From Candidatus Saccharimonadota bacterium (GTDB taxonomy: Bacteria > Patescibacteriota > Saccharimonadia > Saccharimonadales > Saccharimonadaceae), in NCBI GenBank assembly GCA_905373345.1, contig CAJPSU010000006.1:1-20680 (forward strand): a DNA stretch of 20,680 nucleotides. Reading direction: 5' to 3'. Within the stretch, counting starts at the first letter, position 1. Every line of letters begins with the position of its first letter. The translations under genes were made by a program, and so were the position numbers. The notes below the pieces were generated by a model that worked only from the letters and a program-made list of their open reading frames with translations, was not told the origin of the DNA and ran no database searches. Shown piece after piece: positions 1 through 18,787 of this stretch.

Positions 1-32
1 CCAAAAGAATAACACCGCTCATTTTTTGTTGT

Positions 33-512
33 CTAGAGGGTTGTGCAACAATGCCAAACGAGCAGCTGATTCATTGTAAAATCCTGCCGGTTCATGTACT
101 GCTCCGGCGTCTCTGCAACACTAACGCCATGACTATGCGAGTAATCATCTGGAGATAATCTTTCTGCTAATAATTCAAGAGTATCGTACGCACCATGCGA
201 GGAGTCGCTGTCAGCTGCTTGTAAAACTTGTATAAAGTCAACGTCGCGCGGACGGCGTGTTCTGCATCCATCATACAACGCTGCCAGCAGCACGTTGCGC
301 CCCGCTCCCCCTCGGAAGCCACCAGAGACAGGAATATCATCAAGATTGACTCCCAGGTTAGCACGCTCAAGTGTCTCCTCGTTGAGAGTAATCTGGCATA
401 AACCTTCGTGCGAGCAATCTGCTTGTTCAATAAGCATTTTATCTGCGGATTGACGTAGCCAATATGGCATTGCGTCTTTTGGGCTTGGAATGTGATTGAG
501 CGTAAGAGGCAT
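33..512 (-). CDS. Nucleotidyltransferase-like protein (poly(A) polymerase/CCA-enzyme head domain), short or truncated
   Basis: The ORF encodes 159 aa. Three motifs occur in the order and rough spacing of the class II poly(A) polymerase/CCA-adding enzyme head domain: a Gly-rich GGFRGGAGRN (residues 64-73), an acidic pair in RDVDF (89-93) that would bind metal, and RQDFTMNQ (142-149), close to the family's RRDFTINA. Members of that family attach nucleotides to RNA 3' ends or to other acceptors. Here the reading frame stops only ten residues after the last motif, so the neck and body that bind tRNA are missing. It may be a stand-alone minimal nucleotidyltransferase, or a gene broken by a frameshift or stop near position 33; another frame stays open to the window edge. 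The ATG at 512 is chosen because a -10 TATCAT ends 7 nt upstream, which predicts a leaderless mRNA. The substrate is unknown. The motif assignment is by eye and moderately sure. Confidence 0.6.
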   Translation of the reverse strand: MPLTLNHIPSPKDAMPYWLRQSADKMLIEQADCSHEGLCQITLNEETLERANLGVNLDDIPVSGGFRGGAGRNVLLAALYDGCRTRRPRDVDFIQVLQAADSDSSHGAYDTLELLAERLSPDDYSHSHGVSVAETPEQYMNRQDFTMNQLLVWHCCTTL

Positions 513-519
513 AGCTTAT

Positions 520-528
520 ATGATAACA
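520..528 (-). promoter_or_regulatory. Extended -10 promoter of the nucleotidyltransferase-like gene
   Basis: Read on the minus strand, TGT precedes TATCAT, giving a TGn-extended -10. The hexamer ends 7 nt before the ATG at 512, so transcription should start at or within a base of the start codon. No convincing -35 is seen. Confidence 0.5.
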
Positions 529-692
529 CTAAATGGCATATATGTCAAATAATAAGCCTCGTCTTGGATAAATTAAGGTTCAGTAAACTAAAACGGACCA
601 TCTCTTCTCGAATTAGCTGTTGTACGTATGTGCCTTAACTGCTTATGTTTATCAACCATACTTTATCAGCAAACACAAGTACTCAAGGAATA

Positions 693-723
693 TTCCCCGC
701 TTTTGAGAAACCAGAGCGGGGAA
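693..723. repeat. Inverted repeat / stem-loop
   Basis: TTCCCCGCT at 693-701 is perfectly complementary to AGCGGGGAA at 715-723, with a 13-nt loop. Neither strand has a T-run after the stem, so it is not a standard intrinsic terminator. It lies downstream of the ORF at 880-1212 on the minus strand and could protect or end that transcript. Confidence 0.5.
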
Positions 724-879
724 ACTGGGTGAATCATGCCAGTGGCGTAATGCTTATAAGTAGCGAACTATTTCACATGCGTTCAACGGCTTTAGCCTAG
801 ATACAGGCGAATGAATTTTAGCAAATACCAAAATCCATCATGTCCGGGTTTACTGCCCGTTCAGTGCGGTACCGAGGCA

Positions 880-1212
880 TCAGAGCCGCGCGAACGCGCG
901 GCAGCCGATGATCCGACCCTGGCTGTCGCGGACAGCCCCGCTCGTAACGAGCAGGTCGTCCGTTGAGCGACCCTGGGCCTGCGCTGCCTCCACCGTGATA
1001 CGACTCACGATGTAAACGATGCCCTCAGCGGGCTCGGGCAGGCCAAGAACCTCGCCGAACTCGGTCTTAACGACCGGGATCGACTCGATCTCGCCTACCA
1101 GCACATTGTGCTGGCTAGCCCGCGCCACCCCGCTACTGGGGAAAGTCGCGATGACGTTATCGTCGTCATCGAGGACCTTCACCTCGTGCGGGGTGAGATT
1201 CACGATCTCCAT
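880..1212 (-). CDS. Small conserved hypothetical protein, probably horizontally acquired
   Basis: The product is 110 aa and begins MEIVNLTPHEV. From memory it resembles small uncharacterised proteins of Actinobacteria and phages that share a start of the NLTPH type, a central EFGEVLGLPEP segment (here about residues 71-81), a YIVSRITVEAA segment and a C-terminal GRIIGCRAFAR. No catalytic motif, signal peptide or membrane segment is seen, and the function is unknown. The start is fixed by an excellent Shine-Dalgarno GGAGG placed 7 nt before the ATG, unlike most genes in this window, which look leaderless. Base composition is clearly richer in G+C than the AT-rich flanks, with many GCG, GTC and GAC codons. 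Isolation, composition and different initiation style together suggest recent import, perhaps from an actinobacterial host or its phage; that origin is inference. Confidence 0.7.
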   Translation of the reverse strand: MEIVNLTPHEVKVLDDDDNVIATFPSSGVARASQHNVLVGEIESIPVVKTEFGEVLGLPEPAEGIVYIVSRITVEAAQAQGRSTDDLLVTSGAVRDSQGRIIGCRAFARL

Positions 1213-1244
1213 TTCCCTCCCTCCAAGGGTGAGCGCGCATAACC

Positions 1245-1286
1245 CCGCAAAGTACTTTCAGAAACCCCGAAAGCTATTCTTTGCGG
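1245..1286 (-). promoter_or_regulatory. Structured leader element of the ORF at 880-1212
   Basis: Two nested perfect helices are visible. CCGCAAAG (1245-1252) pairs with CTTTGCGG (1279-1286). Inside it CTTTC (1255-1259) pairs with GAAAG (1269-1273). On the minus strand the structure sits about 20 nt upstream of the Shine-Dalgarno site. It does not match a riboswitch class that I recognise, and it may act in mRNA stability or translation. Confidence 0.45.
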
Positions 1287-1303
1287 TGCGCGAGATCGCT
1301 TTT

Positions 1304-1328
1304 CCTGATAAGACTAGTCTTGATCAGG
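1304..1328. repeat. 25-bp near-perfect palindrome, operator-like
   Basis: CCTGAT (1304-1309) and ATCAGG (1323-1328) flank a perfect 12-bp palindrome AAGACTAGTCTT (1310-1321); a single extra G at 1322 breaks the symmetry. A symmetric site of this size upstream of the ORF at 880-1212 would suit a dimeric repressor, although a hairpin in the RNA is equally possible. Confidence 0.45.
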
Positions 1329-1617
1329 TTGCCGGCCTCTAGAATCGCCAGCAATCCAACCAAACGCTATATTTATTAATAATTGCTGCCCCAGCGTATG
1401 TTTACCATCCCGCAATAGTAACAATTACACGCAACCTACGTTTTGCCTATTACGCTCACCTCGCACATAGCCGTCGCGTGTTATACTGCGAAACACATCG
1501 TTTGTCAATAGTATCATATTTTTTCGCGTTCATAGTAAAACCAATAATTCTAAGAAATTAAGAAATAATGATAACTAGCTAATTTAAGCTATGAATTGAG
1601 CGCGCAAATAAAGACCC

Positions 1618-1707
1618 TGGCGGAGAGACAGGGATTCGAACCCTGGGTACGATTGCTCGCACACACGCGTTCCAGGCGTGCACCTTCAACCGCTCGGTCA
1701 CCTCTCC
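1618..1707 (-). tRNA. tRNA-Ser (anticodon GGA, reads UCC/UCU)
   Basis: The minus strand folds into a class II tRNA of 90 nt including an encoded 3' CCA (1618-1620). The acceptor stem GGAGAGG pairs with TCTCTCC with one G-T pair, and the discriminator is G. The anticodon loop reads CTGGAAC with anticodon GGA. A long variable arm follows, as expected for serine, and the T arm is CAGGG-TTCGAAT-CCCTG. Confidence 0.95.
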
Positions 1708-1717
1708 GCGTATTTTT

Positions 1718-1723
1718 AGTATA
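1718..1723 (-). promoter_or_regulatory. Promoter -10 of tRNA-Ser(GGA)
   Basis: TATACT on the minus strand lies 10 nt upstream of the mature tRNA 5' end, a good position for a -10 hexamer. No clear -35 is seen. Confidence 0.5.
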
Positions 1724-1786
1724 ACGCATTACGCTATGGATCGCCCGTTCTCCGCGTAAAGTTGTATTTTATACATTATTTAACGG

Positions 1787-1816
1787 TTGCCTTATCTTGC
1801 ATGACGCTTTTATAAT
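1787..1816 (+). promoter_or_regulatory. Promoter of the MacB-like operon
   Basis: TTGCCT (1787-1792) and a perfect TATAAT (1811-1816) are separated by 18 nt. The -10 ends 7 nt before the ATG at 1824, so the mRNA should be leaderless or nearly so. The AAAGGAG between the -10 and the ATG abuts the start codon and cannot work as a normal Shine-Dalgarno site. Confidence 0.65.
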
Positions 1817-1823
1817 AAAGGAG

Positions 1824-2759
1824 ATGATTGCGAAAACTGGCACAGCGCCCGTCATTCAATTGAAAGGGCTCACTAAGCGTTACGGTATCGGCGACACGGC
1901 GCGCGATGTTCTCGACTCGGTGAACCTGAAAATTGAGCAGGGCGAATTTATCGCCGTTATGGGTCCATCTGGGTGCGGCAAAACGACATTACTTAACGTT
2001 ATCGGTCTGCTTGACCGGCCTGATAGCGGCGAATATTCTTTGAATGGCACATCGGCGGCGCGGTTGTCGGGTGCGCAGCGGGCGCGAGCGCGGGCGACGC
2101 AAATCGGTATCGTCTTTCAAAGTTTTAATTTAATAAACCGCCTGACGGTACTCGAAAACGTTGCGCTTCCCCTCACCTATCAAGGTGTTTCCCGCGTAAA
2201 ACGATTGGAGCGCGCAAGTGAAATTTTGAAGACGTTTCATCTGCAAGAACGCGAGTACTACATGCCGTGGCAATTGTCTGGTGGACAAATGCAGCGCGTT
2301 GCGATCGCGCGGGCACTCGTCAGCAAACCAAGCATTATTCTCGCAGACGAACCGACAGGCAACCTAGACAGCCGCTCCAGCCATGTCATCATGGAAGAAT
2401 TAGCGCAGCTTCACAAGCAAGGCAATACGATTATCATGGTGACGCACAATCCGAATCTCACGAGTTACGCTAGCCGCGTTATCAATATGCTTGATGGTAA
2501 AATCGCGAGCGACACCAAAATACGTATCGCGAGCGGCAATGAAAGCGAGAAACCGGTAAAAGTCTCGCTCAACGCGCGCCGCGCCGCTAAAGAAGAAAAG
2601 AGCGAAACGCGCTCCGCAAAAAAGAAGCCGGCGAAAGAGGCAAAAAACGACGATCAGCCTGCTGCAAACGACCCTGAGCCATCTGAGCCAGACGGCGCCG
2701 AAGCATCATCTTCCGGTCAACCATCAGACCAAACCGAACGAAAGAAGGCAGAATCATGA
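1824..2759 (+). CDS. MacB-type ABC transporter, ATP-binding protein
   Basis: This 311-aa protein is the ATPase of a MacB/LolD-like exporter and energises the permease encoded next. Walker [10 protein letters not shown] is at 47-55, the Q-loop near 99, the signature LSGGQ at 141-145, Walker B IILADE at 161-166 and the switch His at about 198. Residues 225-311 form an extra, highly charged low-complexity tail rich in Lys, Glu, Ala and Ser; typical LolD/MacB ATPases end near residue 225-240. The frame is open to a TTG at 1797, but the TATAAT at 1811-1816 would then lie inside the gene, so ATG 1824 is preferred. The stop overlaps the permease start by 4 nt (ATGA), showing a two-gene translationally coupled operon. 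Substrates of this family include peptides, lipoproteins and macrolides; which applies here cannot be told. Confidence 0.93.
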
Positions 2760-4101: not shown

Positions 4102-5145
4102 CTACTCTGCTAGTGCTTTTTTGAATTTCTCAATCAAATCAACGCGCGTCGGGTCGACATTATTCAAGATTCCAACGTAAATACTAACAAAATCGGCGAG
4201 GATACTCCCCCATAGCATCTGCTCAAGAATAGTCTCGCCTTGCAGCGGTACGACGGTAGACTTGGGACGTTTGCCTGACAGCATCTTATCGCTTAGCGCA
4301 AACCGCTTAAGGATCCGCGGATTTTCTAGATTGCTAATCAAGTCAAATACCGCAAACGGCTTCTCGACCGGGTGGCTCGTCCAGCCGATGAATTCATTAT
4401 GGCTAAACTCCGGAAAATAATTCCAAAATGCCACGTTTTTTGCATTTTCGTTCCAGCTAATTTTCCACTTATAGGCAACTGGCGCCATTAAGCTGCCTGC
4501 ATAGAATACTGGCGTTTTACCGACGGCGATAAGAGCTAACTGCTTGGCGTAATTGCGTTTGGTCGGAATGTCTTTGCGCCAGAGAGCGCTTTCGCGCGCG
4601 ATCCACGGCTCGGCATCGTCAAGTTGCCTGAGCCATGAACTTGATAACAGATTAAAATTATGCAGTAACGTGAATAATCCGCGTAAATTATACAACATGC
4701 CCATACGCGGCTGCGTATCGTTCGGAATGTGCGCAAACGCGATCTGGTGTTGCTCGGCGATGCGCACAACTTCCCCGCCCGTTGCGATAACGGCAATTTG
4801 ACAGCCGCGCTTGATTGCCTGGCGCAGGCACGACACGGTTTCTTCAGTATTGCCAGAGTGGCTGCTCGCAATTACTAATGTATGCTCGGCAGCGTAGGCG
4901 GGCAACGTATAGTCTTTCACGATTTCAAGCGGAATTGGTAGCGTATCGCGCAGCAGTACTTTTGCGGCGTCGGCAGCAAGCGCCGAGCCGCCCATGCCGG
5001 CAACAATTACGTGGCGTAATTCCCGCCCGTCGTGATCTTCATTTACTACTGGAATCTCGCGAGAAATTTGCGCATGCAGCTTTGCCGCAACATCAAGCGC
5101 TCCTAAGCGGTCGCGCTGTTTCAAAATCTGTGCGTCATCGAGCAT
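4102..5145 (-). CDS. Bifunctional phosphoglucose/phosphomannose isomerase
   Basis: The 347-aa protein belongs to the SIS-fold Pgi/Pmi family, which interconverts glucose-6-P or mannose-6-P with fructose-6-P and is much shorter than classical Pgi. GMGGSA is at 50-55, the phosphosugar-binding SSHSGNTEET at 94-103, PEFSHNEFIGW near 245-255 (compare the family's PELNHNE), and the C-terminal DPTRVDLIEKFK matches the family end. The upstream GTG at 5166 would add seven residues, but the ATG at 5145 is preferred: AAGGTGG on the minus strand lies 8 nt before it and the family normally begins near there. The gene is divergent from the one at 5199, and the two promoters are packed together. The product links central sugar metabolism to nucleotide-sugar and cell-wall precursors. 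Confidence 0.9.
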   Translation of the reverse strand: MLDDAQILKQRDRLGALDVAAKLHAQISREIPVVNEDHDGRELRHVIVAGMGGSALAADAAKVLLRDTLPIPLEIVKDYTLPAYAAEHTLVIASSHSGNTEETVSCLRQAIKRGCQIAVIATGGEVVRIAEQHQIAFAHIPNDTQPRMGMLYNLRGLFTLLHNFNLLSSSWLRQLDDAEPWIARESALWRKDIPTKRNYAKQLALIAVGKTPVFYAGSLMAPVAYKWKISWNENAKNVAFWNYFPEFSHNEFIGWTSHPVEKPFAVFDLISNLENPRILKRFALSDKMLSGKRPKSTVVPLQGETILEQMLWGSILADFVSIYVGILNNVDPTRVDLIEKFKKALAE

Positions 5146-5185
5146 TCTTAAAACCACCTTTTCCACTTGCGATACATTCTTTATC

Positions 5186-5191
5186 TATGAT
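5186..5191 (+). promoter_or_regulatory. Promoter -10 of the gene at 5199
   Basis: TATGAT ends 7 nt before an in-frame ATG at 5199, the leaderless spacing seen throughout this window. It lies within 3 nt of the opposing -10 of the pgi/pmi gene. Confidence 0.5.
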
Positions 5192-5193
5192 AC

Positions 5194-5199
5194 AGTATA
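5194..5199 (-). promoter_or_regulatory. Promoter -10 of the pgi/pmi gene
   Basis: TATACT on the minus strand would start transcription near 5187, giving a leader of about 42 nt that carries the AAGGTGG ribosome site at 5154-5160. It overlaps the space needed by the opposing promoter, so both cannot be occupied together. Confidence 0.4.
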
Positions 5200-5708
5200 T
5201 GAGAAAGCATAACAAGAATGATAGTAATGAGGTGGGAATGAATATAAAACCGCAAACGACACAACCAATCAGTGACGACCAAGAGCTCGCAAAGGTATTG
5301 GCCGGCGTAAACGATGATGCCGCTGCCGCGCAGCCGCAAGCCGCCCTACCTCCAACGCCGCCGCCGATGCCGCCAGCGCCGGCAGATGATACTGCGCCAG
5401 CAAGCGTTCCCGCTAAAGCCGCGGCTTCAATAAAAGCCCCGGCAGCGCCTACTTCATCAGGCGACGCCTCGCTTGACGCGGTCAAGAAAGACGCCATCAC
5501 TGAGCTGCGCCCGCTTGTTGATAAACTCAATATCGCTCCCGACGAAAAATTTGACACATATCTCCTGCTAATTCGTTCTACTGATGACCGTTCGCTCATC
5601 GCACCCGCACACGAAGCCGCCAAAGCGATCCCCGACGAAGGACGGCGCGCCCAAGCATTACTCGACATTATTAAAGAAATTGACTATCTTTCAAACCCGC
5701 AAAGTTAG
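5199..5708 (+). CDS. Unknown protein: Pro/Ala-rich linker plus C-terminal helical domain
   Basis: The 169-aa product is not recognised. Residues 40-87 form a Pro/Ala-rich, probably disordered linker with runs such as LPPTPPPMPP. Residues 91-165 look like a compact helical domain with regular hydrophobic spacing (AVKKDAITELRPLVDKL, then YLLLIR, then ALLDIIKEIDYL). There is no signal peptide or membrane helix, so it should be cytoplasmic. Two starts are possible: ATG 5199, placed 7 nt after a TATGAT (leaderless, chosen), or ATG 5238 after a GAGGTGG that is rather close to it (156 aa). It may be a lineage-specific protein; a role beside the divergent sugar isomerase cannot be inferred. Confidence 0.7.
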   Translation: MRKHNKNDSNEVGMNIKPQTTQPISDDQELAKVLAGVNDDAAAAQPQAALPPTPPPMPPAPADDTAPASVPAKAAASIKAPAAPTSSGDASLDAVKKDAITELRPLVDKLNIAPDEKFDTYLLLIRSTDDRSLIAPAHEAAKAIPDEGRRAQALLDIIKEIDYLSNPQS

Positions 5709-5806: not shown

Positions 5807-5815
5807 TGCTATAAT
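5807..5815 (+). promoter_or_regulatory. Extended -10 promoter of FemAB-1
   Basis: TGC precedes a perfect TATAAT (5810-5815), which ends 6 nt before ATG 5822. A leaderless transcript is predicted. This also rules out the longer reading frame that begins at 5747. Confidence 0.6.
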
Positions 5816-5821
5816 TTACCT

Positions 5822-6859
5822 ATGATACATTTCGCGGCGCCCGCTGAAATTAGCCAGTGGGACGAATTAGTGAGTAAAAATCCAAACGGCGGTGATTTTT
5901 TCCAGTTGGCAGCATTCGCACATATCAAGCAGCAGCGCGGGTGGACACCGCGGTATATCGTGACAGATCGCGCAGCACTGTTAGCACTCGAAAAGCGTGC
6001 GGCCGGTTTCGGTAAGTTATGGTATTGTCCGCAAGGTGTAGGTGCTGCGAACGCTGAGGATACGGCAATGATTTTGCATGATTTACAAGCGTTTGCGCGC
6101 ACACAAGGCGTGTTTGCGGTGAAATGCGAGACGCAACTCATTGACGCACCAGAAACACGCCAAGCGCTGCTACAAGCGGGCTTACAGCGTTCTACTGATG
6201 TACAGCCGACGATGTCGACGATTTGGCTTGATATCCGCCCAGAATTAGCGGTTATCGAAGCACGTTTCAATAGTAAAGTTCGCTATAATATTCGCCAAGC
6301 ACGCAAGGGCGAGGTGCGCTGCCGTGTTATGCCAGCAGAGGAATCGACGTACCGGGCGTTTTATGAATTATTTGCCGAAACAGCGAACGGGCGTTTCGTG
6401 ATTCGCCCCTACGAATACTACCGGAAGTTTTGGAGCGAATACTGCGAGAGCGGGCATGGATTTATCATATTTGCCTACGATGACGGACAACTTGCGTCGG
6501 CAGATTTCGTTATGACGCTCGGGCACAAAGCTAGCCGCAAAGACGCTGGCAGCACGCGCCGTAAAACTACGCGCGGCATTCCTGCTCTTTTGATTCTCGA
6601 AACGATCCGCGAGCTGAAAAAGCGCGGCATCACCGACTACGACCTCTGCGGCGCGCCGCATTCAGCGCACATCAAAGATAAAAGCCACCCGCTATACGGC
6701 GTCGGACAATTCAAAGCGGGATTCAACGACCATGTTACCGATCATGCTGGTACATACTTGTTGCCGGTGCGTCCATGGCGGGCGAAGTTATGGCAGCGTT
6801 TCGTTGAAAAAATCGTGCGCGCTATATATTATCGCCTGAAACACCAAGCATGGTACTAG
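5822..6859 (+). CDS. FemAB-family peptidoglycan bridge aminoacyltransferase (copy 1)
   Basis: The 345-aa protein belongs to the FemABX/MurMN family, which adds amino acids from aminoacyl-tRNA to the stem peptide of lipid II, building cell-wall cross-bridges at the cytoplasmic face of the membrane. It has the two GNAT-like halves. The first ends near the conserved SKVRYNIRQARKGEV segment (about 151-165). The second contains a GIPALLILETIRELKKRGI helix (about 252-270), then YDLCGAP (273-279) and YGVGQFKAGFN (about 292-302), the usual FemAB C-terminal signature. ATG 5822 is chosen because a TATAAT ends 6 nt upstream. The gene is convergent with the Mur ligase, sharing four bases (CTAG) at the stops. 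The amino acid transferred cannot be predicted. Confidence 0.88.
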   Translation: MIHFAAPAEISQWDELVSKNPNGGDFFQLAAFAHIKQQRGWTPRYIVTDRAALLALEKRAAGFGKLWYCPQGVGAANAEDTAMILHDLQAFARTQGVFAVKCETQLIDAPETRQALLQAGLQRSTDVQPTMSTIWLDIRPELAVIEARFNSKVRYNIRQARKGEVRCRVMPAEESTYRAFYELFAETANGRFVIRPYEYYRKFWSEYCESGHGFIIFAYDDGQLASADFVMTLGHKASRKDAGSTRRKTTRGIPALLILETIRELKKRGITDYDLCGAPHSAHIKDKSHPLYGVGQFKAGFNDHVTDHAGTYLLPVRPWRAKLWQRFVEKIVRAIYYRLKHQAWY

Positions 6860-8148
6860 GTTTTCTTGAGTAATTCTTTCACGACTTCGGCATCATTCCA
6901 CGGGACGCGCTCGCCGTTGATAATGCGGTAGACTTCGTGCCCCATGCCGGTGATAAGTACTGTATCGCCTTTCGCGGCAAGACGAAGCGCTTTTGCGATT
7001 GCATCGCGCCGGTCGGGGATTTCAGTTGTTTTTACTGCGCCGCTTCTTACGCGTTCTATACCGTCGTAAACCATTTTACGAATTGCTGCCGGATCTTCAT
7101 TGTAGCTTTCTTCGTCGGTCAAAAAAATACGATTAGCAAGGCGCGCAGCGATTTCGCCCATAATCGGGCGCTTTTCTTTATCGCGGTCGCCCGTCGCGCC
7201 AAAAACGAGCAGCACGCGGTTTTTTGTGATTGCTTTGACAGCAGTGAGGATTTTCTCAAGTCCGTCTGGCGTATGCGCATAATCAACGATCACATCATAC
7301 GGCGTGTTAGTGTTGACGCGCTCAAATCGCCCCGGCACGCTTTCGAGATTCGCGGCGCCCTCAACAATGTCCTTCAGCGATACGCCAAGCAGATACGCGG
7401 CACACACCGCAGCAGTCATGTTGTATACATTAAATTTGCCCGGCAGATTTGTGGCAAGTTCTAGCTTAGTTTGATGGTCGATTGTGATGGACGCCTCTGT
7501 TCCCTTGCGGTACAATTTTACGCGGTCAATATGCGCTTCGGCATCGGCATGTTCGCCGTAAGTAATTTTCTGAGCTTGCGCGGGGAATTTGTTAAAATAC
7601 TCAAACCATTCGTCGTCGCGGTTCAGGACAATATATTTTGGATTTTGCGCAAACAAGCGGCTTTTTACCTCGGCGTATGCATCCATCGTTTTGTGGTAAT
7701 CTAAATGATCTTGCGTCAGATTGGTCATAATTGCCATCTCGACCGGCACGCCTTCAAGCTTATGCTGATGAATCGCATGGCTCGGAAATTCCATTACTAC
7801 AAAATCAACACGCGCTTTCTTGGCGCGACGGAAGAATCGCTGCATTATTGCTGTGCTCGCGACAGTAGCGTTCAATTCGTTGCGTCTTGTTTGCCCGGCA
7901 ATCTCAATTGTTGCGGTGCTAAACATCGCTGTTGTGTAGCCAGCCTCTTTGAGAATTTCGTTCAGGTAATTAACTGTCGTTGTTTTGCCGTTCGTGCCGG
8001 TTACAGCGATGACGCGAAGATGTTTCGCTGGATTACCATATCGCATACGCACCAGCCGAACGCGCATTTTGCGATACCGCTCCTCTAGCTGATGCACCAA
8101 ACGAACAGGCAGTATTGCTCGCACGCCTCTCACTAACAGCTGCTTCAT
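6856..8148 (-). CDS. Mur ligase family protein, MurE-like but lacking the N-terminal UDP-binding domain
   Basis: The 430-aa product has the central ATPase and C-terminal domains of Mur ligases: P-loop GTNGKTTT at 51-58, TNLTQDHLDYH at 142-152, PGRFE near 263, DYAHTPDGL at 279-287 and GATGDRDKEKRP at 307-318. These are most like MurE, which adds the third stem amino acid to UDP-MurNAc-Ala-Glu. The P-loop lies only about 50 residues from the start, against about 110 in MurE, so the normal N-terminal UDP-MurNAc domain is replaced by a short basic segment. The meso-DAP motif DNPR is not present; the corresponding site reads DEESYNEDP (335-343). The substrate may therefore be unusual. A TACGAT with TGG extension ends 7 nt before the ATG, predicting a leaderless mRNA. 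The gene is divergent from tsaD and convergent with FemAB-1. Confidence 0.87.
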   Translation of the reverse strand: MKQLLVRGVRAILPVRLVHQLEERYRKMRVRLVRMRYGNPAKHLRVIAVTGTNGKTTTVNYLNEILKEAGYTTAMFSTATIEIAGQTRRNELNATVASTAIMQRFFRRAKKARVDFVVMEFPSHAIHQHKLEGVPVEMAIMTNLTQDHLDYHKTMDAYAEVKSRLFAQNPKYIVLNRDDEWFEYFNKFPAQAQKITYGEHADAEAHIDRVKLYRKGTEASITIDHQTKLELATNLPGKFNVYNMTAAVCAAYLLGVSLKDIVEGAANLESVPGRFERVNTNTPYDVIVDYAHTPDGLEKILTAVKAITKNRVLLVFGATGDRDKEKRPIMGEIAARLANRIFLTDEESYNEDPAAIRKMVYDGIERVRSGAVKTTEIPDRRDAIAKALRLAAKGDTVLITGMGHEVYRIINGERVPWNDAEVVKELLKKT

Positions 8149-8155: not shown

Positions 8156-8164
8156 ATCGTACCA
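8156..8164 (-). promoter_or_regulatory. Extended -10 promoter of the Mur ligase gene
   Basis: On the minus strand TGG precedes TACGAT, which ends 7 nt before the ATG at 8148. It is paired with the divergent tsaD promoter about 50 bp away. Confidence 0.5.
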
Positions 8165-8207: not shown

Positions 8208-8216
8208 TGGTATAAT
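8208..8216 (+). promoter_or_regulatory. Extended -10 promoter of tsaD-tsaC
   Basis: TGG precedes a perfect TATAAT (8211-8216), ending 7 nt before ATG 8224. A leaderless start is predicted, so the adjacent TTG at 8221 is probably not the initiator. Confidence 0.6.
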
Positions 8217-8223: not shown

Positions 8224-9315
8224 ATGAAAATTTTGGGAATTGAGTCGAGTTGCGACGAGACAGCGGCGGCGGTCGTTGAGGATGGCTTTCGCGTATTGTC
8301 AAGCGTGGTAAATTCGCAAATTGATATTCACGCGCAGTACGGCGGTGTTGTGCCAGAAATAGCCGCACGCAGCCATATCGAAGTGATAAATCCGGTGATT
8401 CGCGAAGCGCTAACGCAGGCGCAGTGCAATTGGGGTGATCTTGATGCGATTGCCGTCACTTACGCGCCCGGTTTAGTTGGCTCATTGCTGGTCGGCGTAC
8501 TTGCCGCGCGGACGCTCGCAATTTTACGCGATAAGCCGCTCTACGCGATTCACCATGTCGAGGCGCATGTGTATGCGAATTTTATTACCGAGAGCAATGG
8601 CTCGGCGCTACAGCTACCGTCAAAGCAACCGGAATTCCCCCTGCTTGCGCTTATTGTATCAGGCGGACATACGCAACTGGTATTGTTTCATGGTCACGGC
8701 GATTATGAATTGCTCGGGCAAACGCAAGACGACGCCGTTGGCGAAGCCTTTGATAAGGTCGCGAAAATTCTTGGACTCCCCTACCCTGGCGGTCCGTCAA
8801 TTGCCGCTGCTGCTCGGCATGGTGACCCCGAAAAATATCATTTGCCAAAGGCAAAGCTTGATAATCCGTATAATTTTTCGTTCTCTGGGCTTAAAACAGC
8901 CGTTCTACGGGCAGTGCAGCATGCAGTAGGCAAAGACTTCACATTCCCATCGCACGAGCTTCCAAAGCTCATAAATGATGTTCAGCGGGAAGATTTCGCG
9001 GCGAGCTTTCAGCGCGTGGCGGTCGAGACATTAGTAGAGCGCACATTGCGTGCGTATAACGACTTTGCGCCGCGGTCAGTCGTGATTGCTGGCGGCGTGG
9101 CGGCGAATCAGGAACTGCGGCGTCAACTATCGGCTCGCTTGCCAATTGCAATCGAATATGCGCCGATGCAGTTTTGTACGGATAATGCAGCGATGATTGC
9201 TACGCTCGGGTTTTTTCATACTCAATACGGCATACCTGCTGATCCATATACTCTTGATGTCGTTCCAAGCTTATCCATGGTAAATACAGCCTGGAATTCT
9301 ACAAAGGTGTTGTAA
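8224..9315 (+). CDS. tsaD: tRNA N6-adenosine threonylcarbamoyltransferase TsaD (Kae1/Qri7 family)
   Basis: The 363-aa protein is TsaD, which transfers the threonylcarbamoyl group from TC-AMP to A37 of ANN-reading tRNAs, forming t6A. The N-terminus MKILGIESSCDET is the family hallmark. The metal-binding HHVEAH is at 110-115, with the His pair 111/115. SGGHTQL, DDAVGEAFDKVAKILGLPYPGGP, SFSGLKTA and the C-terminal FCTDNAAMIA segment are all intact. Length is normal for bacteria. ATG 8224 gives the canonical N-terminus and fits the promoter. The tsaC gene starts directly after the stop, so both steps of t6A synthesis are made from one transcript. TsaB and TsaE partners are not in this window. Confidence 0.97.
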   Translation: MKILGIESSCDETAAAVVEDGFRVLSSVVNSQIDIHAQYGGVVPEIAARSHIEVINPVIREALTQAQCNWGDLDAIAVTYAPGLVGSLLVGVLAARTLAILRDKPLYAIHHVEAHVYANFITESNGSALQLPSKQPEFPLLALIVSGGHTQLVLFHGHGDYELLGQTQDDAVGEAFDKVAKILGLPYPGGPSIAAAARHGDPEKYHLPKAKLDNPYNFSFSGLKTAVLRAVQHAVGKDFTFPSHELPKLINDVQREDFAASFQRVAVETLVERTLRAYNDFAPRSVVIAGGVAANQELRRQLSARLPIAIEYAPMQFCTDNAAMIATLGFFHTQYGIPADPYTLDVVPSLSMVNTAWNSTKVL

Positions 9316-9906
9316 ATGGCACAACTATTTACCTCTGTTGCTGACAAGAACTTAGCCGCATTGTTGCACGGTGGCGCGATTGGCATATTGCCAACCGATA
9401 CGGTGTATGGCTTAGTGTCGGTTATTGCCCCCGAGCCGGTTAAACGCCTCTATGCGGCGAAGCCGCGCCAGTCGCATGCCGGTACGGTTATCGCATCGTC
9501 GGTTGATGATTTGATCGCACTTGGGCTTGATGAGGCAGCCTTGCGGCATGTTTCACATTTGTGGCCGGCATCTCTGAGCGTGGTGATTGCGGCGCAGCAT
9601 GTTCCTAAGTTTTTGCGCGAGGAACGTGGTAGTCTCGCGGTCAGGATACCAGAAGACAATACGCTACGGTCGCTGCTACAAAAGACCGGTCCGCTCATGA
9701 CGACAAGTGCGAATAAACACGGCGAAAAGACAGCGGCAACCATCTCGACGGCACAGCGTATTTTTGGTGATTCCGTTGATTTTTATGTTGATGGCGGCGA
9801 TTTGAGTAACCGCCCGCCTTCAACGATTATTACGGTAGATGCTCATGGAGCTATAACAGTACTGCGTGAAGGTGCTGTGCCAGTGCAATCGCTTGCTGGT
9901 GCTTAG
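9316..9906 (+). CDS. tsaC: L-threonylcarbamoyladenylate synthase TsaC/Sua5 (YrdC domain)
   Basis: This 196-aa YrdC-domain enzyme makes threonylcarbamoyl-AMP from threonine, bicarbonate and ATP, the substrate of TsaD. Visible signatures are GAIGILPTDTVYGLVS (20-35), the ATP-binding AKPRQSHAG region (48-56, Lys49 and Arg51), HLWPASLSVVI (81-91, compare WPGPLT), TTSANKHGE (129-137) and RPPSTII (166-172). It lacks the extra C-terminal Sua5 domain, so it is the short TsaC form. It begins immediately after the tsaD stop (TAAATG) and is therefore translationally coupled. Its stop shares four bases, TTAG, with that of the convergent FemAB-2 gene. Confidence 0.95.
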   Translation: MAQLFTSVADKNLAALLHGGAIGILPTDTVYGLVSVIAPEPVKRLYAAKPRQSHAGTVIASSVDDLIALGLDEAALRHVSHLWPASLSVVIAAQHVPKFLREERGSLAVRIPEDNTLRSLLQKTGPLMTTSANKHGEKTAATISTAQRIFGDSVDFYVDGGDLSNRPPSTIITVDAHGAITVLREGAVPVQSLAGA

Positions 9907-10880
9907 TGTTTGATATATCGGATTATTTTTTTAGCGGCTGGCAGCAATCTTGTCCAGACGCCATAAAGCGGACTGAGCGGATAGTCGTACGTACCAGCGA
10001 GCATATCCTCATGATTAGCAAAACCGCGTTTGAAATTACTAATACCGTCATTAAGCAGCCCGTTCATGTCATAGCGGTTAATCCCCCACTCTTTGCACTT
10101 GCGGATAGCAAACCACTTCAGCGCGTAGTTTGCTCGTAGCGCCTGCCCGCGCTCGTTCATGCCGCCATATAACTCAAAAGAAGTTTCCTGACTGGCAGCG
10201 AGCCAGACGAATGCGATCGGCTCGCTGCCTTCGTAGGCGGCAAAGATAAGCGACGAGTCGCCCAGGTTGATGTGGACGTCACGGTAATATTGATCGTCGT
10301 GAAGAGCAAAACCAGCACGTTCTGCTGTCTGATGATAAATTTCGAGTAATTTTTCGATATCGTCCATCGCTTTGACACGGCGCAACGTGATACCTGCTCG
10401 TTCTGATTTACGGATATACTGGCGTGTTTTTTTCGCCATTGCGGCAAGCAACTCCTCTTCGCTGTGGCGCAAGTCTAAAATTAATGTTTTTGGGATCAGG
10501 ATCGTATTTGACGATCGCCGCCACCCCGCTGCCATTGGAGCTAGCTCTGTATCGGGTTCGACGGTTAGCAGCGTGCCGGGTAAATGCTGCGACACGTACG
10601 TTGCGAGCGCGTCGTATACTGCTGCGGCGTCCCCTTCCCTGCAGACTGGACCGCGCGGCACGTAACAGAGGCGGCGAAAAGGCTTTGGCAGTATTCTCTC
10701 TAAAATCTGTGCGGCACCGGCAACTCCGCCCTGCTGATCGGTAAACAATACGCGGTGCGCGTGCCAGTTGTGCGCCGATTTTACCTCTCCCCACCCCCAC
10801 AGCTGAAGCGGGTGTCCGCCTAAATCGTATATCACTTCGTTCCACACCGTTGATTCGGCGCATTCATTCCCTTGTAACAT
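9903..10880 (-). CDS. FemAB-family peptidoglycan bridge aminoacyltransferase (copy 2)
   Basis: The 325-aa product is a second FemAB/FemX-like protein, clearly diverged from the copy at 5822. It shows an N-terminal half with LCYVPRGPVC (71-80), the junction segment KKTRQYIRKSERAGI (about 150-164), a second half with IAFVWLAAS, then a YGGMNERGQALRANYALKWFAI helix, YDMNGL (280-285), and the closing SNFKRGFANHE region typical of the family. The frame is open to 11018, but a TATACT ends exactly 6 nt before ATG 10880, and the upstream part would overlap the valS leader, so ATG 10880 is chosen. It is divergent from valS and convergent with tsaC. Two such enzymes may add successive bridge residues. 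Confidence 0.88.
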   Translation of the reverse strand: MLQGNECAESTVWNEVIYDLGGHPLQLWGWGEVKSAHNWHAHRVLFTDQQGGVAGAAQILERILPKPFRRLCYVPRGPVCREGDAAAVYDALATYVSQHLPGTLLTVEPDTELAPMAAGWRRSSNTILIPKTLILDLRHSEEELLAAMAKKTRQYIRKSERAGITLRRVKAMDDIEKLLEIYHQTAERAGFALHDDQYYRDVHINLGDSSLIFAAYEGSEPIAFVWLAASQETSFELYGGMNERGQALRANYALKWFAIRKCKEWGINRYDMNGLLNDGISNFKRGFANHEDMLAGTYDYPLSPLYGVWTRLLPAAKKIIRYIKH

Positions 10881-10886: not shown

Positions 10887-10892
10887 AGTATA
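10887..10892 (-). promoter_or_regulatory. Promoter -10 of FemAB-2
   Basis: TATACT on the minus strand ends 6 nt before ATG 10880 and predicts a leaderless mRNA. It lies only about 11 bp from the opposing valS -10, so the two promoters must compete or cooperate. Confidence 0.5.
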
Positions 10893-10917: not shown

Positions 10918-11049
10918 GAATACAAACACGTGAGAAAATAAAAGGTGCAAGGATAACAGAGGTGAGGGCGCTTATGCTGAGCGATTCCTGGGTTATCTTT
11001 TTGATTTTTAGTTTTCACGTGAATAACCTAATGAATAAGAAGAGCCGAT
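10918..11049 (+). promoter_or_regulatory. Structured 5' leader of valS, possible attenuator
   Basis: Three nested helices are visible. CACGTGAGAA (10927-10936) pairs with TTTTCACGTG (11012-11021), ten pairs with one G-U. AAGGATAAC (10949-10957) pairs with GTTATCTTT (10992-11000), nine pairs with one G-U. CGCT (10969-10972) pairs with AGCG (10980-10983). The second helix is followed by TTTTTGATTTTT, so it could work as a terminator. The T-box consensus AGGGTGG-ACCGCG is absent, and I recognise no known riboswitch. The coordinates run from the predicted transcription start to the codon before valS. Confidence 0.5.
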
Positions 11050-14064: not shown

Positions 14065-14274
14065 GAGACCCATAACAATTTTGCTTGTTGCTGGACAATA
14101 TCTGATTCCGGCTTCTGTGTGAATATCGGTACAATCACTAATCTAAACAATCCTAAATCGTAAGTAAACTCTACCCGCGAGAGACTGACGGGGATTGTTG
14201 AGCAAGAGCTGGAAGCTATCACTACTCTGGCGGATGACAGTAATTATAAAAATCTAGAGAACTATTCGTGGTGA
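14050..14274 (+). pseudogene. Coding-like remnant with an internal stop
   Basis: The interval between the gene at 13602 and rlmH has no intact gene. One plus-strand frame reads as plausible protein from 14050: it contains CWTISDSGFCVNIGTITNL, then a TAA at 14161-14163, then continues in the same frame with RERLTGIVEQELEAITTLAD and ends at TGA 14272-14274, overlapping the rlmH stop by 13 bases. No start codon suits the first part. The composition looks like a secreted or pilin-like protein, but I cannot name a family. It may be a decayed gene or chance. Confidence 0.22.
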
Positions 14275-14717
14275 TATTTTCCGCCTCGGGCGATTTCTTG
14301 TGCGCGATATAGTTGCTCGACAAGGATAAGCCGCACCAATTGGTGAGGAAATATGAGCGGGCTGAGCGACCATACTAGATTAGCACGAGCACGCAATGCA
14401 TCGGTAACGCCATATGCGCCGCCGATAACAAAGGTGGGTGTGCGGTTGCTTGTGAACGCTTGATCAAGCGATTGCGACAGGGCGGGGGAATCGAGCGGTT
14501 TCCCGCGTTCATCAAGGACGATAACGAAATCATCTGCTCGGCAATGAGACAATATACGTTCAGATTCATCGCGGCGAGCCTTATTGCCATCAAGCGGGCT
14601 GTGCGGCAATAACTCCCACGTGATATTCCATGGGCGCTGCAGGCGTTTTTGATAACGCTCTATGCCGGCAGCAACCCAGGGTTCGTGTTTTTTACCTATA
14701 GCAATGATTTTAAGCAT
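14262..14717 (-). CDS. rlmH: 23S rRNA (pseudouridine1915-N3)-methyltransferase RlmH
   Basis: The 151-aa SPOUT methyltransferase methylates pseudouridine 1915 in helix 69 of 23S rRNA on assembled ribosomes, using SAM. The N-terminus MLKIIAIGK, the FVIVLDERGKPLDS segment (64-77), the knot GGAYGV (99-104), LSPLIFPHQLVRLILVEQLYRA (118-139) and the closing KYHHE are family hallmarks; the second position of the knot loop usually reads GGADG or GGPYG. Length is typical (about 155 aa). The ATG at 14717 is chosen because it gives the canonical N-terminus; it overlaps the end of the upstream HIT gene by 8 nt, so the two are translationally coupled. A longer frame to 14762 has no support. Confidence 0.95.
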   Translation of the reverse strand: MLKIIAIGKKHEPWVAAGIERYQKRLQRPWNITWELLPHSPLDGNKARRDESERILSHCRADDFVIVLDERGKPLDSPALSQSLDQAFTSNRTPTFVIGGAYGVTDALRARANLVWSLSPLIFPHQLVRLILVEQLYRAQEIARGGKYHHE

Positions 14718-15108
14718 TAGTTCGCAGTTTTTCTGCCATAGCCGCAAGCGCGTCATGATCAACTGGCGACTCTGTGTCCTGTGGCTGCTTTAATTCCGCT
14801 TCGCTACCGATCGGAATTAGATGGATATGCGCATGCGGTACGCCATATCCCATCACGACCGAGGCAACGCGCGGGCGAATCTTGAGGCGTTCAATGTGTT
14901 TCGCAAGACGCTTTGCAACGTTCCAGAGGTGAGCGTACGTGTCGTCGTCTAAGTCCCACAAGCTATCAACTTGTTTTTTTGGAATAACGAGTGTATGTCC
15001 CTCAACTTGCGGATGAATGTCAAGAAATGCAATCGTTTTGTCGTCTTCGTAGATTTTATGGCAAGGCAGTTCGCCTTTAATGATTTTAGTAAAAATTGAA
15101 TCTTCCAT
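14710..15108 (-). CDS. HIT family (histidine triad) nucleotide hydrolase
   Basis: The 132-aa protein is of the HIT superfamily, Hint branch, which hydrolyses purine nucleoside phosphoramidates or related adenylates. It starts MEDSIFTKIIKGELPCHKIYED, a classic Hint N-terminus, has an HTLVIPKKQ strand (38-46), and carries the catalytic triad H92-x-H94-x-H96 in VPHAHIHLIP. About 25 further residues follow. ATG 15108 is preferred over longer frames because a TATAAT ends 6 nt upstream and because it gives the family N-terminus. It is the first gene of a two-gene unit with rlmH (8-nt overlap) and is divergent from tRNA-Ser(CGA). Cytoplasmic housekeeping role. Confidence 0.93.
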   Translation of the reverse strand: MEDSIFTKIIKGELPCHKIYEDDKTIAFLDIHPQVEGHTLVIPKKQVDSLWDLDDDTYAHLWNVAKRLAKHIERLKIRPRVASVVMGYGVPHAHIHLIPIGSEAELKQPQDTESPVDHDALAAMAEKLRTNA

Positions 15109-15114
15109 ACCTAT

Positions 15115-15120
15115 ATTATA
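15115..15120 (-). promoter_or_regulatory. Promoter -10 of HIT-rlmH
   Basis: A perfect TATAAT on the minus strand ends 6 nt before ATG 15108, predicting a leaderless mRNA. It is back to back with the tRNA-Ser(CGA) promoter. Confidence 0.6.
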
Positions 15121-15131
15121 CACTGTGCATC

Positions 15132-15140: not shown

Positions 15141-15153
15141 ACGTAGGCAACAT

Positions 15154-15241
15154 GGAGAGGTGCAGGAGTGGTTGAACTGGCCGCTCTCGAAAAGCGGTAT
15201 GGGGCAACTCATCGAGGGTTCGAATCCCTCCCTCTCCGCCA
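15154..15241 (+). tRNA. tRNA-Ser (anticodon CGA, reads UCG)
   Basis: An 88-nt class II tRNA with encoded CCA (15239-15241). The acceptor stem GGAGAGG pairs perfectly with CCTCTCC and the discriminator is G. The anticodon stem CCGCT/AGCGG encloses the loop CTCGAAA with anticodon CGA. A long variable arm follows, and the T arm is GAGGG-TTCGAAT-CCCTC. The 5' seven bases are identical to those of the other serine tRNA at 1618-1707. Confidence 0.96.
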
Positions 15242-15243
15242 TG

Positions 15244-15277
15244 AATAATACGCGAGACTTGCTCGCGTATTATTTTT
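15244..15277 (+). terminator. Intrinsic terminator of tRNA-Ser(CGA)
   Basis: AATAATACGCGAG (15244-15256) is perfectly complementary to CTCGCGTATTATT (15262-15274) across a 5-nt loop; the T-run extends to 15277. The stem starts 3 nt after the tRNA. Because the NatB-like gene converges on it from the other side, it may end both transcripts. Confidence 0.9.
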
Positions 15278-15297
15278 GCAGCATAACTAAAACCCTC

Positions 15298-16503: not shown

Positions 16504-16513
16504 GGCGCGCCTC

Positions 16514-17248
16514 CTATTCTTGATCATTTTCGTTGCCGTATACGCTTAGGAAAATGTCGTCAAGCGATTTGCCGCCAAATTGTTTGCGTATTGCCGCGAC
16601 CGTTCCGTAAGCACGCGCTACGCCATCTTTCAGCAGGATAACGCGGTCACACAAGCGTTCAACTTCTTCCATTTGGTGCGTGATCATAATAACGGTCGCA
16701 CCTTTAGCTTGGTGTTCCTCAATGATCTCCATGAGCAATCGGCGATTTACTGGGTCAAAACCTTTCGTTGGTTCATCCAAGATGAGTAGTTCGGGGTCAT
16801 TCATAATTGTAATACCAAGCTGTACTTTTTGTTGTTGTCCGCCCGATAATTTATCAAGGCGGGTTGTCGCTTTGTCTGCCAGATTTACGCGCTGCAAAAA
16901 TGCCATTGAGCGTGCTCGCGCTTCGCTTTTGCTGAATTCCTTCAGCCGACCAAAATATACCATTGTATCAATGACGGTTTCTTTTTTATACAGCCCGCGC
17001 TCTTCTGGTAGATAGCCAAGTTTCACGCCGCCCGACACGCTGTACGGCTTGCCGTTTACTAATAGCGTGCCGCTCGTCGGCGCGTAAATGCCAAGCAGCG
17101 CGCGGATTGTCGTCGTTTTACCCGATCCGTTGCTGCCGAGAAACCCGAATGTTTCGCCGCGTTTCACTGTAAAACTCAGATCTTTTATTACTTCAATGTC
17201 GCCGAATTTCATCTGGAAATGGTCGACTGCTACAATTGCATTGCTCAT
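16514..17248 (-). CDS. ABC transporter ATP-binding protein (NatA-like)
   Basis: The 244-aa ATPase powers the NatB-like permease encoded next. Walker A GSNGSGKTT is at 38-46, the signature LSGGQ at 134-138, Walker B LLILDE at 154-159 followed by PTKGFDP, and the switch His at 201 (THQMEEVE). PEERGLYKKETVIDTMVYFG (81-100) is typical of the NatA/EcsA-like DUF4162 group, although the C-terminal extension is short. The frame is open to 17461, but a TACAAT ends 6 nt before ATG 17248 and the standard N-terminus begins there, so that start is used. It is divergent from the spermidine-synthase-like gene. Confidence 0.92.
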   Translation of the reverse strand: MSNAIVAVDHFQMKFGDIEVIKDLSFTVKRGETFGFLGSNGSGKTTTIRALLGIYAPTSGTLLVNGKPYSVSGGVKLGYLPEERGLYKKETVIDTMVYFGRLKEFSKSEARARSMAFLQRVNLADKATTRLDKLSGGQQQKVQLGITIMNDPELLILDEPTKGFDPVNRRLLMEIIEEHQAKGATVIMITHQMEEVERLCDRVILLKDGVARAYGTVAAIRKQFGGKSLDDIFLSVYGNENDQE

Positions 17249-17254
17249 ACGTCC

Positions 17255-17260
17255 ATTGTA
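17255..17260 (-). promoter_or_regulatory. Promoter -10 of the NatAB-like operon
   Basis: TACAAT on the minus strand ends 6 nt before ATG 17248; a leaderless mRNA is predicted. Confidence 0.45.
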
Positions 17261-17302
17261 ATATGCGGCAGCTATCTGTAGCAATAGACGAACGAAATGC
17301 GA

Positions 17303-17308
17303 TATGAT
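17303..17308 (+). promoter_or_regulatory. Promoter -10 of the spermidine-synthase-like gene
   Basis: TATGAT ends 7 nt before ATG 17316, again the leaderless spacing. The ATG at 17304 lies inside this hexamer and is not a likely start. Confidence 0.5.
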
Positions 17309-17315
17309 AGAAGAT

Positions 17316-18749
17316 ATGAAATCATCGTGGAGGCTAGGCGCGGCAGCGTGCGTCGGCGGCTTTGCGCTAATGGCGTATGAGTTGGTGGCAGCGCGGCTGC
17401 TTGCGCCGTCGGTTGGTAGTTCGACATACGTATGGACGGGCGTGATCGGCGTGATTATCATTGCGCTGAGTGCAGGTTGCTGGCTGGGCGGACGTGTTGC
17501 GGACTATCGGCATGCGCCGCAAGACGTTGGACTGCTGCTAATAATTGCTGCTGTGCTGGTGGTGGCGACAATGTTGAGCGCAAACGATGTGCTGCGCTGG
17601 CTGACGACGACCCTAGACGAGCCGCGCATACAAGCGGTTATTGCGGCGCTGGTGTTGTTTGCACCGGCAAGTTTCGTGCTTGGTGCGGCGTCGCCCTACT
17701 TAGCAAAATTGAATGTATCATCGCTCAACACGGCGGGACGGTCGGTGGCAAATTTGAGTGCGCTTGATGCGGTAGGCGGCATCGCCGGAACGTTTGTCAC
17801 TGGGTTTGTGCTGCTCGGCGCGATTGGACTAAACGAAACGTTAGCGCTGGTAGCAGGCATCTTGTTAGCAACGAGCTGGTTGTTTATGCCGCGGTGGCAG
17901 TGGCGGCTGCGGGCATTGATGGTTGGAGTGGTAATTATCGCAGCATTGAGTGGATTGTGCGCGCCGAAGCGCGGCGACGTGTCGGTAGAGACTCCAAGCG
18001 CGCATTATTCCATCGTTAATTACACGAATAACGGCAGGCAGATCCGCGGCCTCGTGACTGGACCGACCGGCGTGCAGTCCGGCGTATATCTTGATGGCGC
18101 AAAGGACTTACCGTTTTGGTATACGCGGCGTATGGTTGAAACGACAATCGCCGCTAAACCGCACACGGTGCTACTGCTTGGCGGCGGCGCATTTACAATG
18201 GCAGAGTATATGGCGCGGCAATTGCCAAACACGCACATTGACGTAGTGGAGATTGATCCGGGGCTGGAAAATATATCGCGTCAGTATTTCGGCTATCAGT
18301 CGCTGCCGAACGTGAAGCTAATTTTTAATGACGCGCGCACGTACATCCAGCGGACGAATCGGCACTACGATGTCGTATTAATCGACGTATACAACGGTGG
18401 TGAAATTCCGTACTCGCTATTGACAGCAGAGTATGGTAACGAATTGGCGCGAATCGTGCGCGAAGATGGACTTGTGGTGGCAAATCTTATTGCCGGGCTG
18501 AATAATACACCGTGCTGCGAGTTATTTGCGGCGTTTGATGCGGTATACCGTCGCACCTGGCCGCATGCGTGGTACGCAGCGCAGCACCGTGATTTATCGC
18601 GCGGCAATTATGTTATCGCGTACAGCAAAAAACCGCGGACAATGCCTGCAGCAATGTCTCCGCTGCAGCCGCTTGGCGGCACGCTTTATACCGATAATTT
18701 CATTCCGAACGACAGACTATATGAAGCTTGTCGCACAGCGACACGTTAA
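17316..18749 (+). CDS. Membrane protein fused to a spermidine-synthase-like domain
   Basis: The 477-aa protein has an N-terminal membrane part of about seven helices (roughly 8-30, 38-60, 70-90, 105-130, 150-170, 172-192 and 198-216) and a C-terminal Rossmann-fold domain like spermidine synthase (about 225-455). The nucleotide-binding loop reads LLLGGGAFTMAEYMAR (276-291) instead of GGGDGG, VEIDP is at 301-305 and NDAR at 338-341. The catalytic DSxDP of true aminopropyltransferases is replaced by LIDVYNGGEIP (355-365), so polyamine synthesis is doubtful. Fusions of this kind are widespread and mostly uncharacterised; methyltransferase-like or aminopropyl chemistry at the membrane is inference. 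ATG 17316 follows the leaderless promoter. The gene stands alone. Confidence 0.85.
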   Translation: MKSSWRLGAAACVGGFALMAYELVAARLLAPSVGSSTYVWTGVIGVIIIALSAGCWLGGRVADYRHAPQDVGLLLIIAAVLVVATMLSANDVLRWLTTTLDEPRIQAVIAALVLFAPASFVLGAASPYLAKLNVSSLNTAGRSVANLSALDAVGGIAGTFVTGFVLLGAIGLNETLALVAGILLATSWLFMPRWQWRLRALMVGVVIIAALSGLCAPKRGDVSVETPSAHYSIVNYTNNGRQIRGLVTGPTGVQSGVYLDGAKDLPFWYTRRMVETTIAAKPHTVLLLGGGAFTMAEYMARQLPNTHIDVVEIDPGLENISRQYFGYQSLPNVKLIFNDARTYIQRTNRHYDVVLIDVYNGGEIPYSLLTAEYGNELARIVREDGLVVANLIAGLNNTPCCELFAAFDAVYRRTWPHAWYAAQHRDLSRGNYVIAYSKKPRTMPAAMSPLQPLGGTLYTDNFIPNDRLYEACRTATR

Positions 18750-18787
18750 TGCGCGTGGTAAAAAATACATAAGCAAAATGCTTGCAA

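Follow-up and report, generated by a model that had tools for sequence, protein, structure and literature searches.

Promoter-like -10 elements at the start codons of first-of-unit genes point to leaderless initiation in Saccharibacteria

Leaderless initiation as such is known from other bacteria and from archaea, and in the DNA described here it appears mainly to serve the first genes of transcription units. According to predictions, 21.6% of bacterial species have leaderless genes (PMC9581028), and leaderless genes with a -10 element about 12 nucleotides (nt) before the start have been described for many bacteria (PMC3160421). Here we analysed a stretch of 20,680 nt of DNA from a tiny, uncultured Saccharibacterium (Patescibacteria) (contig CAJPSU010000006.1, hereafter the window), in which ten genes had been proposed to carry a -10-like hexamer directly in front of their start codon, and extended the analysis by genome-wide counts in the nearest genome compared, G001, and in further relatives.

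The TA-led genes of Zheng et al. 2011 (PMC3160421) share with G001 a TANNNT signal about 12 nt upstream, read as a -10 element and belonging to first-of-unit genes, and in the medium-GC genomes of that survey the signal takes the form TAtaaT, as it does here. We likewise found TANNNT enriched about 12 nt upstream, with Shine-Dalgarno (SD) sequences nearly excluded. The net leaderless share of about 18% in G001 is close to the mean of 19.2% in Actinobacteria and lower than the 39.4% in Deinococcus-Thermus (PMC3160421), while the survey itself covers 953 bacterial genomes of 2010, its excerpt listing no candidate phylum. For Deinococcus-Thermus, Zhong et al. 2025 (PMC12340547) describe the same coexistence that we observe, namely a -10 element adjacent to the open reading frame (ORF) and a separate GGAG class within one genome, and reporter assays showed that the ORF-adjacent motif acts as the -10 element of leaderless genes. 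The present case differs in its phylum and in that a TG extension and a weak -35 element are measurable; bacteria were scanned by phylum in that work, whose main text does not contain the term 'Patescibacteria'. Mycobacteria (Shell et al. 2015, PMC4633059), in which leaderless genes have likewise been studied by experiment, resemble the arrangement predicted here in that a start codon at the mRNA 5' end is common in the genome, but they use ATG or GTG, whereas GTG is not enriched here, which sets our case apart from the mycobacterial type. The preference for ATG only is nearer to that of Escherichia coli, in which ATG is optimal (PMC4633059). In Sulfolobus solfataricus (cited in PMC3160421), single and first genes are leaderless and distal operon genes SD-led, a distribution towards which the genes here tend; unlike the archaeal TATA box, however, the element is a bacterial -10 or extended -10, and many first genes are SD-led or lack either signal. 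Searching the open-licence literature, with subscription papers outside the scope, we found no report of leaderless initiation in Saccharibacteria, TM7, Patescibacteria or the candidate phyla radiation, nor of Nanosynbacter transcription start sites; judging from the excerpts, 'leaderless' concerns YchF in PMC12641178 and is a protein-secretion reference in PMC6851277.

All ten hexamers that a preceding sequence-only reading of the window had placed 6 or 7 nt before named ATG codons are present, TATAAT four times, TATGAT twice and TATCAT, TACGAT, TATACT and TACAAT once each, and its statement that this spacing exceeds chance was borne out. Applying a log-odds of at least 3.5 as the -10 criterion and 22 other two-base spacings as controls, a -10 element was found 6-7 nt before some in-frame ATG in 10 of the 15 first-of-unit genes of the window, site 5199 being among the ten, in comparison to 0-3 (mean 0.6) at the other spacings. 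The 15 starts considered were 512-, 1212-, 1824+, 5166-, 5238+, 5822+, 8148-, 8224+, 10880-, 11050+, 13949-, 15108-, 17248-, 17316+ and 18951+. The number of starts departing from the longest frame had been given as six and needs correction, since it is eight of ten if ATG, GTG and TTG open a frame and four of ten if only ATG does. T stands immediately before ATG at 8 of the 10 sites, and a perfect -35 element occurs in the window at site 512 only.

A genome-wide count of -10 motifs relative to start codons, which had been proposed as a check, gave a peak at 6-8 nt in G001, a single contig of 864,133 bases that aligns to the window with 96.0% nucleotide identity over 12.6 kilobases (kb) and 92.7% over 6.4 kb. 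TATAAT followed by ATG was counted 37, 43 and 32 times at 6, 7 and 8 nt, whereas most other distances up to 39 nt gave about 11, and TATACT (41, 23, 16) and TACAAT (19, 18, 8) also rise at these distances. No rise was observed for TAGAAT before ATG in G001, and none of the scrambled AT-rich hexamers AATATT, TTATTA and ATTATA showed a peak there. The TATAAT peak is absent before GTG, TTG, CTG and four other triplets in G001, and near -10 elements at 7 of 263 GTG candidates (controls 2-8) and 4 of 267 TTG candidates do not exceed the controls. SD words in the same genome peak 4-10 nt before ATG. As a replicate, one contig of 190,729 bases from the genome G110 of about 700 kb displayed a TATAAT peak at 6 and 7 nt (26 and 13) and none at 8 nt (2).

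The distribution of the motif over gene positions was obtained with a -10 profile trained on divergent genes and applied at a fixed threshold at 6-8 nt, with 14 distance windows as controls, on 833 G001 genes called by our own gene caller, 38 genes without an ATG candidate being excluded. Divergent genes, which are first of their unit, carry a near -10 in 84 of 221 cases (controls 5-17, about 10). For genes following another on the same strand, the counts were 32 of 151 at gaps above 100 nt (controls 2-17), 40 of 155 at gaps of 26-100 nt (controls 1-9) and 20 of 268 at gaps of at most 25 nt (controls 2-7, about 4). This adds up to 176 of the 833 genes, or about 152 (18%) net of mean controls. 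A mixture estimate for the divergent genes, in which 135 of 433 candidate starts stand against 17-40 in the controls, gives about 110 net and hence at most half of these genes. In G001, some 40-50% of the clear first-of-unit genes, and about 18% of genes overall, look leaderless. SD sequences of at least 5 bases show the opposite tendency, with 36 of 221 divergent genes versus 106 of the 268 genes that follow a same-strand gene at no more than 25 nt, and a further 13 of the 221 divergent genes have a 4-base SD and no near -10. The archaeal-type split by operon position is therefore a strong tendency and not a clean division (84 of 221 versus 20 of 268 leaderless).

Three further signals, which are independent of the way the genes were selected, accompany the near -10 elements in G001. 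A pyrimidine precedes ATG in 72 of 75 genes at 6 nt (p = 2e-10), in 42 of 53 at 7 nt and in 21 of 28 at 8 nt, compared with 289 of 460 other genes, as would be expected if the A of ATG were the first RNA base. The TG extension is found at 35 of 84 near -10 elements versus 187 of 1552 other such hexamers (p = 5e-11), and a TTGACA-like element (4 of 6 bases) lies at a spacer of 17 in 11 of 84 cases, versus 0-5 at the other spacers from 12 to 23. In addition, an SD of at least 5 bases, with every candidate start up to 60 nt away considered, occurs in only 1 of the 84 near -10 divergent genes versus 35 of the 137 other divergent genes (p = 3e-7).

Conservation was assessed in 18 Saccharibacteria loci in which protein homology fixed the start codons. 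A log-odds of at least 3.3 at 6-9 nt was required, which is less strict than the rules used in the window and in G001. The -10 element is kept in 10 of 10 homologues of 10880, 8 of 9 of 5822, 9 of 11 of 15108, 10 of 14 of 8148 and 9 of 14 of 8224, with control means of 0.2-1.0; some low-identity homologues may be paralogues, and the loci L049 and L083 yield the same site for both FemAB queries. Homologues without an ATG within 3 codons were excluded, namely one for 8148, four for 8224, three for valS and seven for 5199. Homologues of 1824 have the element at 6-9 nt in 3 of 5 cases and at 10-11 nt in the others. For 17248, it lies at 6-8 nt in 12 of 19 homologues outside G001 (8 of 14 at an identity of at least 53%), of which two are SD-led and five have neither signal, and for 17316 in 4 of 9 other N-terminal homologues, as judged by eye. 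By comparison, several other genes show the near -10 rarely, in 0 of 6 homologues of the macB permease, 1 of 4 of the gene at 9316 and 1 of 10 of rlmH, all operon-internal, and in 0 of 12 of valS, which has its own unit. Evidence that does not depend on the promoter backs the start codon at 5822, 8148, 8224, 10880 and 15108; it is partial for 1824, 17248 and 17316, comes from G001 only for 512 and fails for 5199. Two homologues of 15108 are, like the two of 17248, SD-led instead, which suggests that the leaderless mode is switched on and off over evolution.

At 5199 the relatives speak for another start. The TATGAT hexamer (5186..5191, +) is present before this ATG, yet none of eight relatives other than G001 has an ATG at the corresponding position, five of them carry in-frame stop codons shortly before the shared start, and each of the eight has an ATG matching 5238 with GGTGGG before it. 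In the window, the SD sequence GAGGTGGGA (5229..5237, +) precedes this second ATG, and the gene is thus most likely leadered and SD-led, with its ORF at 5238..5708 (+); the version starting at 5199 has no Pfam match. A block TATGATACAGTAT is conserved with variation in the relatives, and TGA-TACAGT (5191..5196, +) might act as the extended -10 of a leadered mRNA, whose leader would then measure about 35-40 nt and include an SD.

Leaderless transcription is thus well supported by sequence comparison at nine of the ten sites proposed, and as a genome-wide mode in G001 and its relatives, with 5199 falling away. Considering motif, spacing, the preference for ATG only, the near-exclusion of SD sequences, the position at unit starts and the conservation at homology-placed starts together, we regard it as very likely that in many first-of-unit genes the start codon is joined directly to a promoter of the housekeeping type. 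In such a layout of (TGn)TATAAT, 6-8 nt and ATG, RNA polymerase would begin transcription at the A of AUG or no more than 1-2 nt away from it, and ribosomes would initiate at the 5' AUG without needing an SD, as on known leaderless mRNAs; operon-internal genes and the remaining first genes with longer leaders would use an SD or no recognisable signal. Several observations weigh against this interpretation. Neither signal was found at 89 of the 221 divergent genes of G001, and the genome-wide test rests on this relative and not on the genome of the window itself. TATGAT, the hexamer of sites 5199 and 17316, lacks a clear peak in G001, with 14, 13 and 7 at 6-8 nt versus up to 22 elsewhere, and the TATACT and TACAAT peaks are absent from the G110 contig. 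In the window, one listed site is refuted by the starts of the relatives, sites 1824 and 8224 lack the pyrimidine, and the TG extension is found at only 4 of 10 sites. The earlier description of leaderless initiation as the default is too strong overall. With 84 of the 221 divergent first-of-unit genes looking leaderless, 36 having an SD of at least 5 bases, 13 more a 4-base SD and 89 neither signal, it stands in a narrow sense only and is better read as the commonest recognisable mode of such genes.

The hexamers might also be chance matches in AT-rich upstream DNA to which starts had been fitted. The starts had indeed been picked by motif, wrongly in the case of 5199, and weak TANNNT matches turn up frequently whatever the distance if each ATG is included in the count. 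However, the peak is confined to 6-8 nt both with all in-frame ATG candidates and with longest-frame starts alone, and the motif is conserved at homology-placed starts in diverged relatives, which renders chance highly improbable and refutes it as a general explanation, although single sites such as 512 or 1824 could still be chance hexamers. A real -10 element from which transcription starts slightly up- or downstream, with the true start often being a later, SD-led ATG, is what we find at 5199, and among the homologues of 1824, 15108 and 17248 there are some with a more distant -10 element or with an SD in its place. As a general account this is nevertheless unlikely, with an SD at any nearby candidate start in 1 of 84 genes and with homologues of 5822, 8148, 8224, 10880 and 15108 starting at the same codon. 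Finally, the motif could be an A/T-rich translation enhancer instead of a promoter element, as non-SD AT-rich signals exist in other bacteria (PMC9581028). This we consider scarcely credible, since the signal is sequence-specific, comprising TATAAT, TATACT and TACAAT but not the three scrambles, is accompanied by the TG extension and a -35 signal at 17 base pairs (bp), and is rare in closely following genes.

A loss of the anti-SD sequence was ruled out as the cause, since the 16S 3' region of G001, located by a short conserved pattern, retains CCTCC. As a clue to the translation machinery, rpsA (TIGR00717) was uninformative, with 7 of 7 Saccharibacteria genomes matching below the cut-off, as did most of 14 control genomes (2 above), and a search of 6 of 44 pieces of G001 against Rfam returned only transfer RNAs (tRNAs).

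The spread of the arrangement was followed by counting exact TATAATN{6,8}ATG versus TATAATN{16,18}ATG, with p values that treat matches as independent. In the class of G001, 10 genomes gave 797 versus 276 matches, 7 of them at p<0.001, and in the other classes of the phylum, 135 genomes gave 7502 versus 4669, with a ratio of at least 2 in 54 and below 1.2 in 30; taken together, p<0.001 was reached in 47 of 145 genomes. Among named genomes, which represent 26 of 39 loci from the TsaD homologue set, 13 Saccharibacteria gave 1055 versus 360, 12 of 13 at p<0.001, three of the 13 being titled Patescibacteria and assigned by TsaD identity only. The enrichment thus has the same sign in 23 of 23 Saccharibacteria genomes counted, 19 of them at p<0.001, in two sets that may overlap. 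Six other named Patescibacteria showed ratios of 1.1-1.55, none at p<0.01, and outside Saccharibacteria the enrichment is patchy in other Patescibacteria. No enrichment was found in a Dehalococcoidia genome (57 versus 61) or in two gammaproteobacteria (34 versus 32 and 29 versus 25), and one acidobacterium gave 13 versus 5. Chloroflexota genomes of the Anaerolineae (L060, L062, L075) are also enriched, two Anaerolineales with 75 versus 17 and 125 versus 54 and one Anaerolineae with 65 versus 36.

We tentatively raise the possibility that, throughout Saccharimonadia, most first-of-unit genes are initiated at a leaderless AUG. This mode would go back to an early stage of the Patescibacteria, certain classes having since lost it or kept it in weaker form, with promoter and start codon forming one element, SD sequences being mainly operon-internal, and leaderless mRNA being among the main substrates of the ribosome in these reduced epibionts. 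Most of what is known of Saccharibacteria and other Patescibacteria comes from sequence, their gene starts and 5' untranslated regions being predictions, and a promoter fused to ATG would allow both start and promoter to be read precisely from the DNA, while it also warns against SD-based start calling in this group. If leaderless mRNAs are indeed a main substrate, the small ribosomes would be a good test case for how leaderless initiation works, and leaderless promoters could be built into genetic tools for Saccharibacteria.

Turning to the individual sites, ATG 512 is preceded at 7 nt by TATCAT (520..525, -), with a TGT extension and the perfect TTGACA 17 bp upstream, and both ATG and -10 are retained in G001, more distant relatives being few and ambiguous. 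The predicted leaderless ORF (33..512, -) has no Pfam match; it comprises 159 amino acids versus 222 in the matching frame of G001, and the identity does not extend beyond residue 153, pointing to a change of frame in one or other of the copies. TATAAT (1811..1816, +) lies 7 nt before ATG 1824 of a putatively leaderless MacB-like ABC transporter ATPase (1824..2759, +; Pfam ABC_tran). TATAAT with a TGC extension (5810..5815, +) lies 6 nt before ATG 5822 of a FemAB-family protein (5822..6859, +; Pfam), and TATACT (10887..10892, -) 6 nt before ATG 10880 of a second one (9903..10880, -; Pfam), both predicted to be leaderless. The Mur ligase gene (6856..8148, -; Pfam) has TACGAT with a TGG extension (8156..8161, -) 7 nt before ATG 8148, and the TsaD-like gene (8224..9315, +) has TATAAT with a TGG extension (8211..8216, +) 7 nt before ATG 8224; both are likewise candidates for leaderless expression. 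The latter was named from its homologues and from the best match of a plasmid search, annotated tsaD, which served this purpose only; homologues at 59-78% identity lie on contigs titled Candidatus Saccharibacteria or Patescibacteria.

TATAAT (15115..15120, -) lies 6 nt before ATG 15108 of a presumably leaderless ORF (14710..15108, -), whose product we take to be a HIT-like protein and which is followed by an RlmH-like gene (14262-14717; Pfam SPOUT_MTase). TACAAT (17255..17260, -) lies 6 nt before ATG 17248, where the first ORF of a two-gene unit (16514..17248, -), presumably encoding an ABC ATPase, would begin without a leader. TATGAT (17303..17308, +), retained in G001, lies 7 nt before ATG 17316 of a probably leaderless gene for a Spermine/spermidine synthase-domain protein (17316..18749, +; Pfam). 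Within the divergent pairs 8148/8224 and 17248/17316, only 75 and 67 bp lie between the starts, into which two complete promoters fit.

Two tRNA-Ser genes are located at 1618-1707 (-) and 15154-15241 (+), with anticodons gga and cga, the second being arranged back to back with the leaderless promoter of 15108. For the sugar-isomerase gene (4102-5166, -; Pfam bact-PGI_C), several homologues have an ATG 7 codons downstream of 5166, and the start is probably ATG 5145 and not GTG 5166. Upstream of the valS-like gene (11050), we observed a palindrome TTTTCACGTGAATA at 11012-11025, which we assume to resemble the ParB parS site. Of 18 Saccharibacteria loci, 13 contain copies of TTTTCACGTGAAAA with at most 2 mismatches, frequently with 1-3 of them before valS, and the palindrome could mark a centromere-like site; G001 has only three such hits, one of which lies before valS, about 49 kb from the GC-skew minimum.

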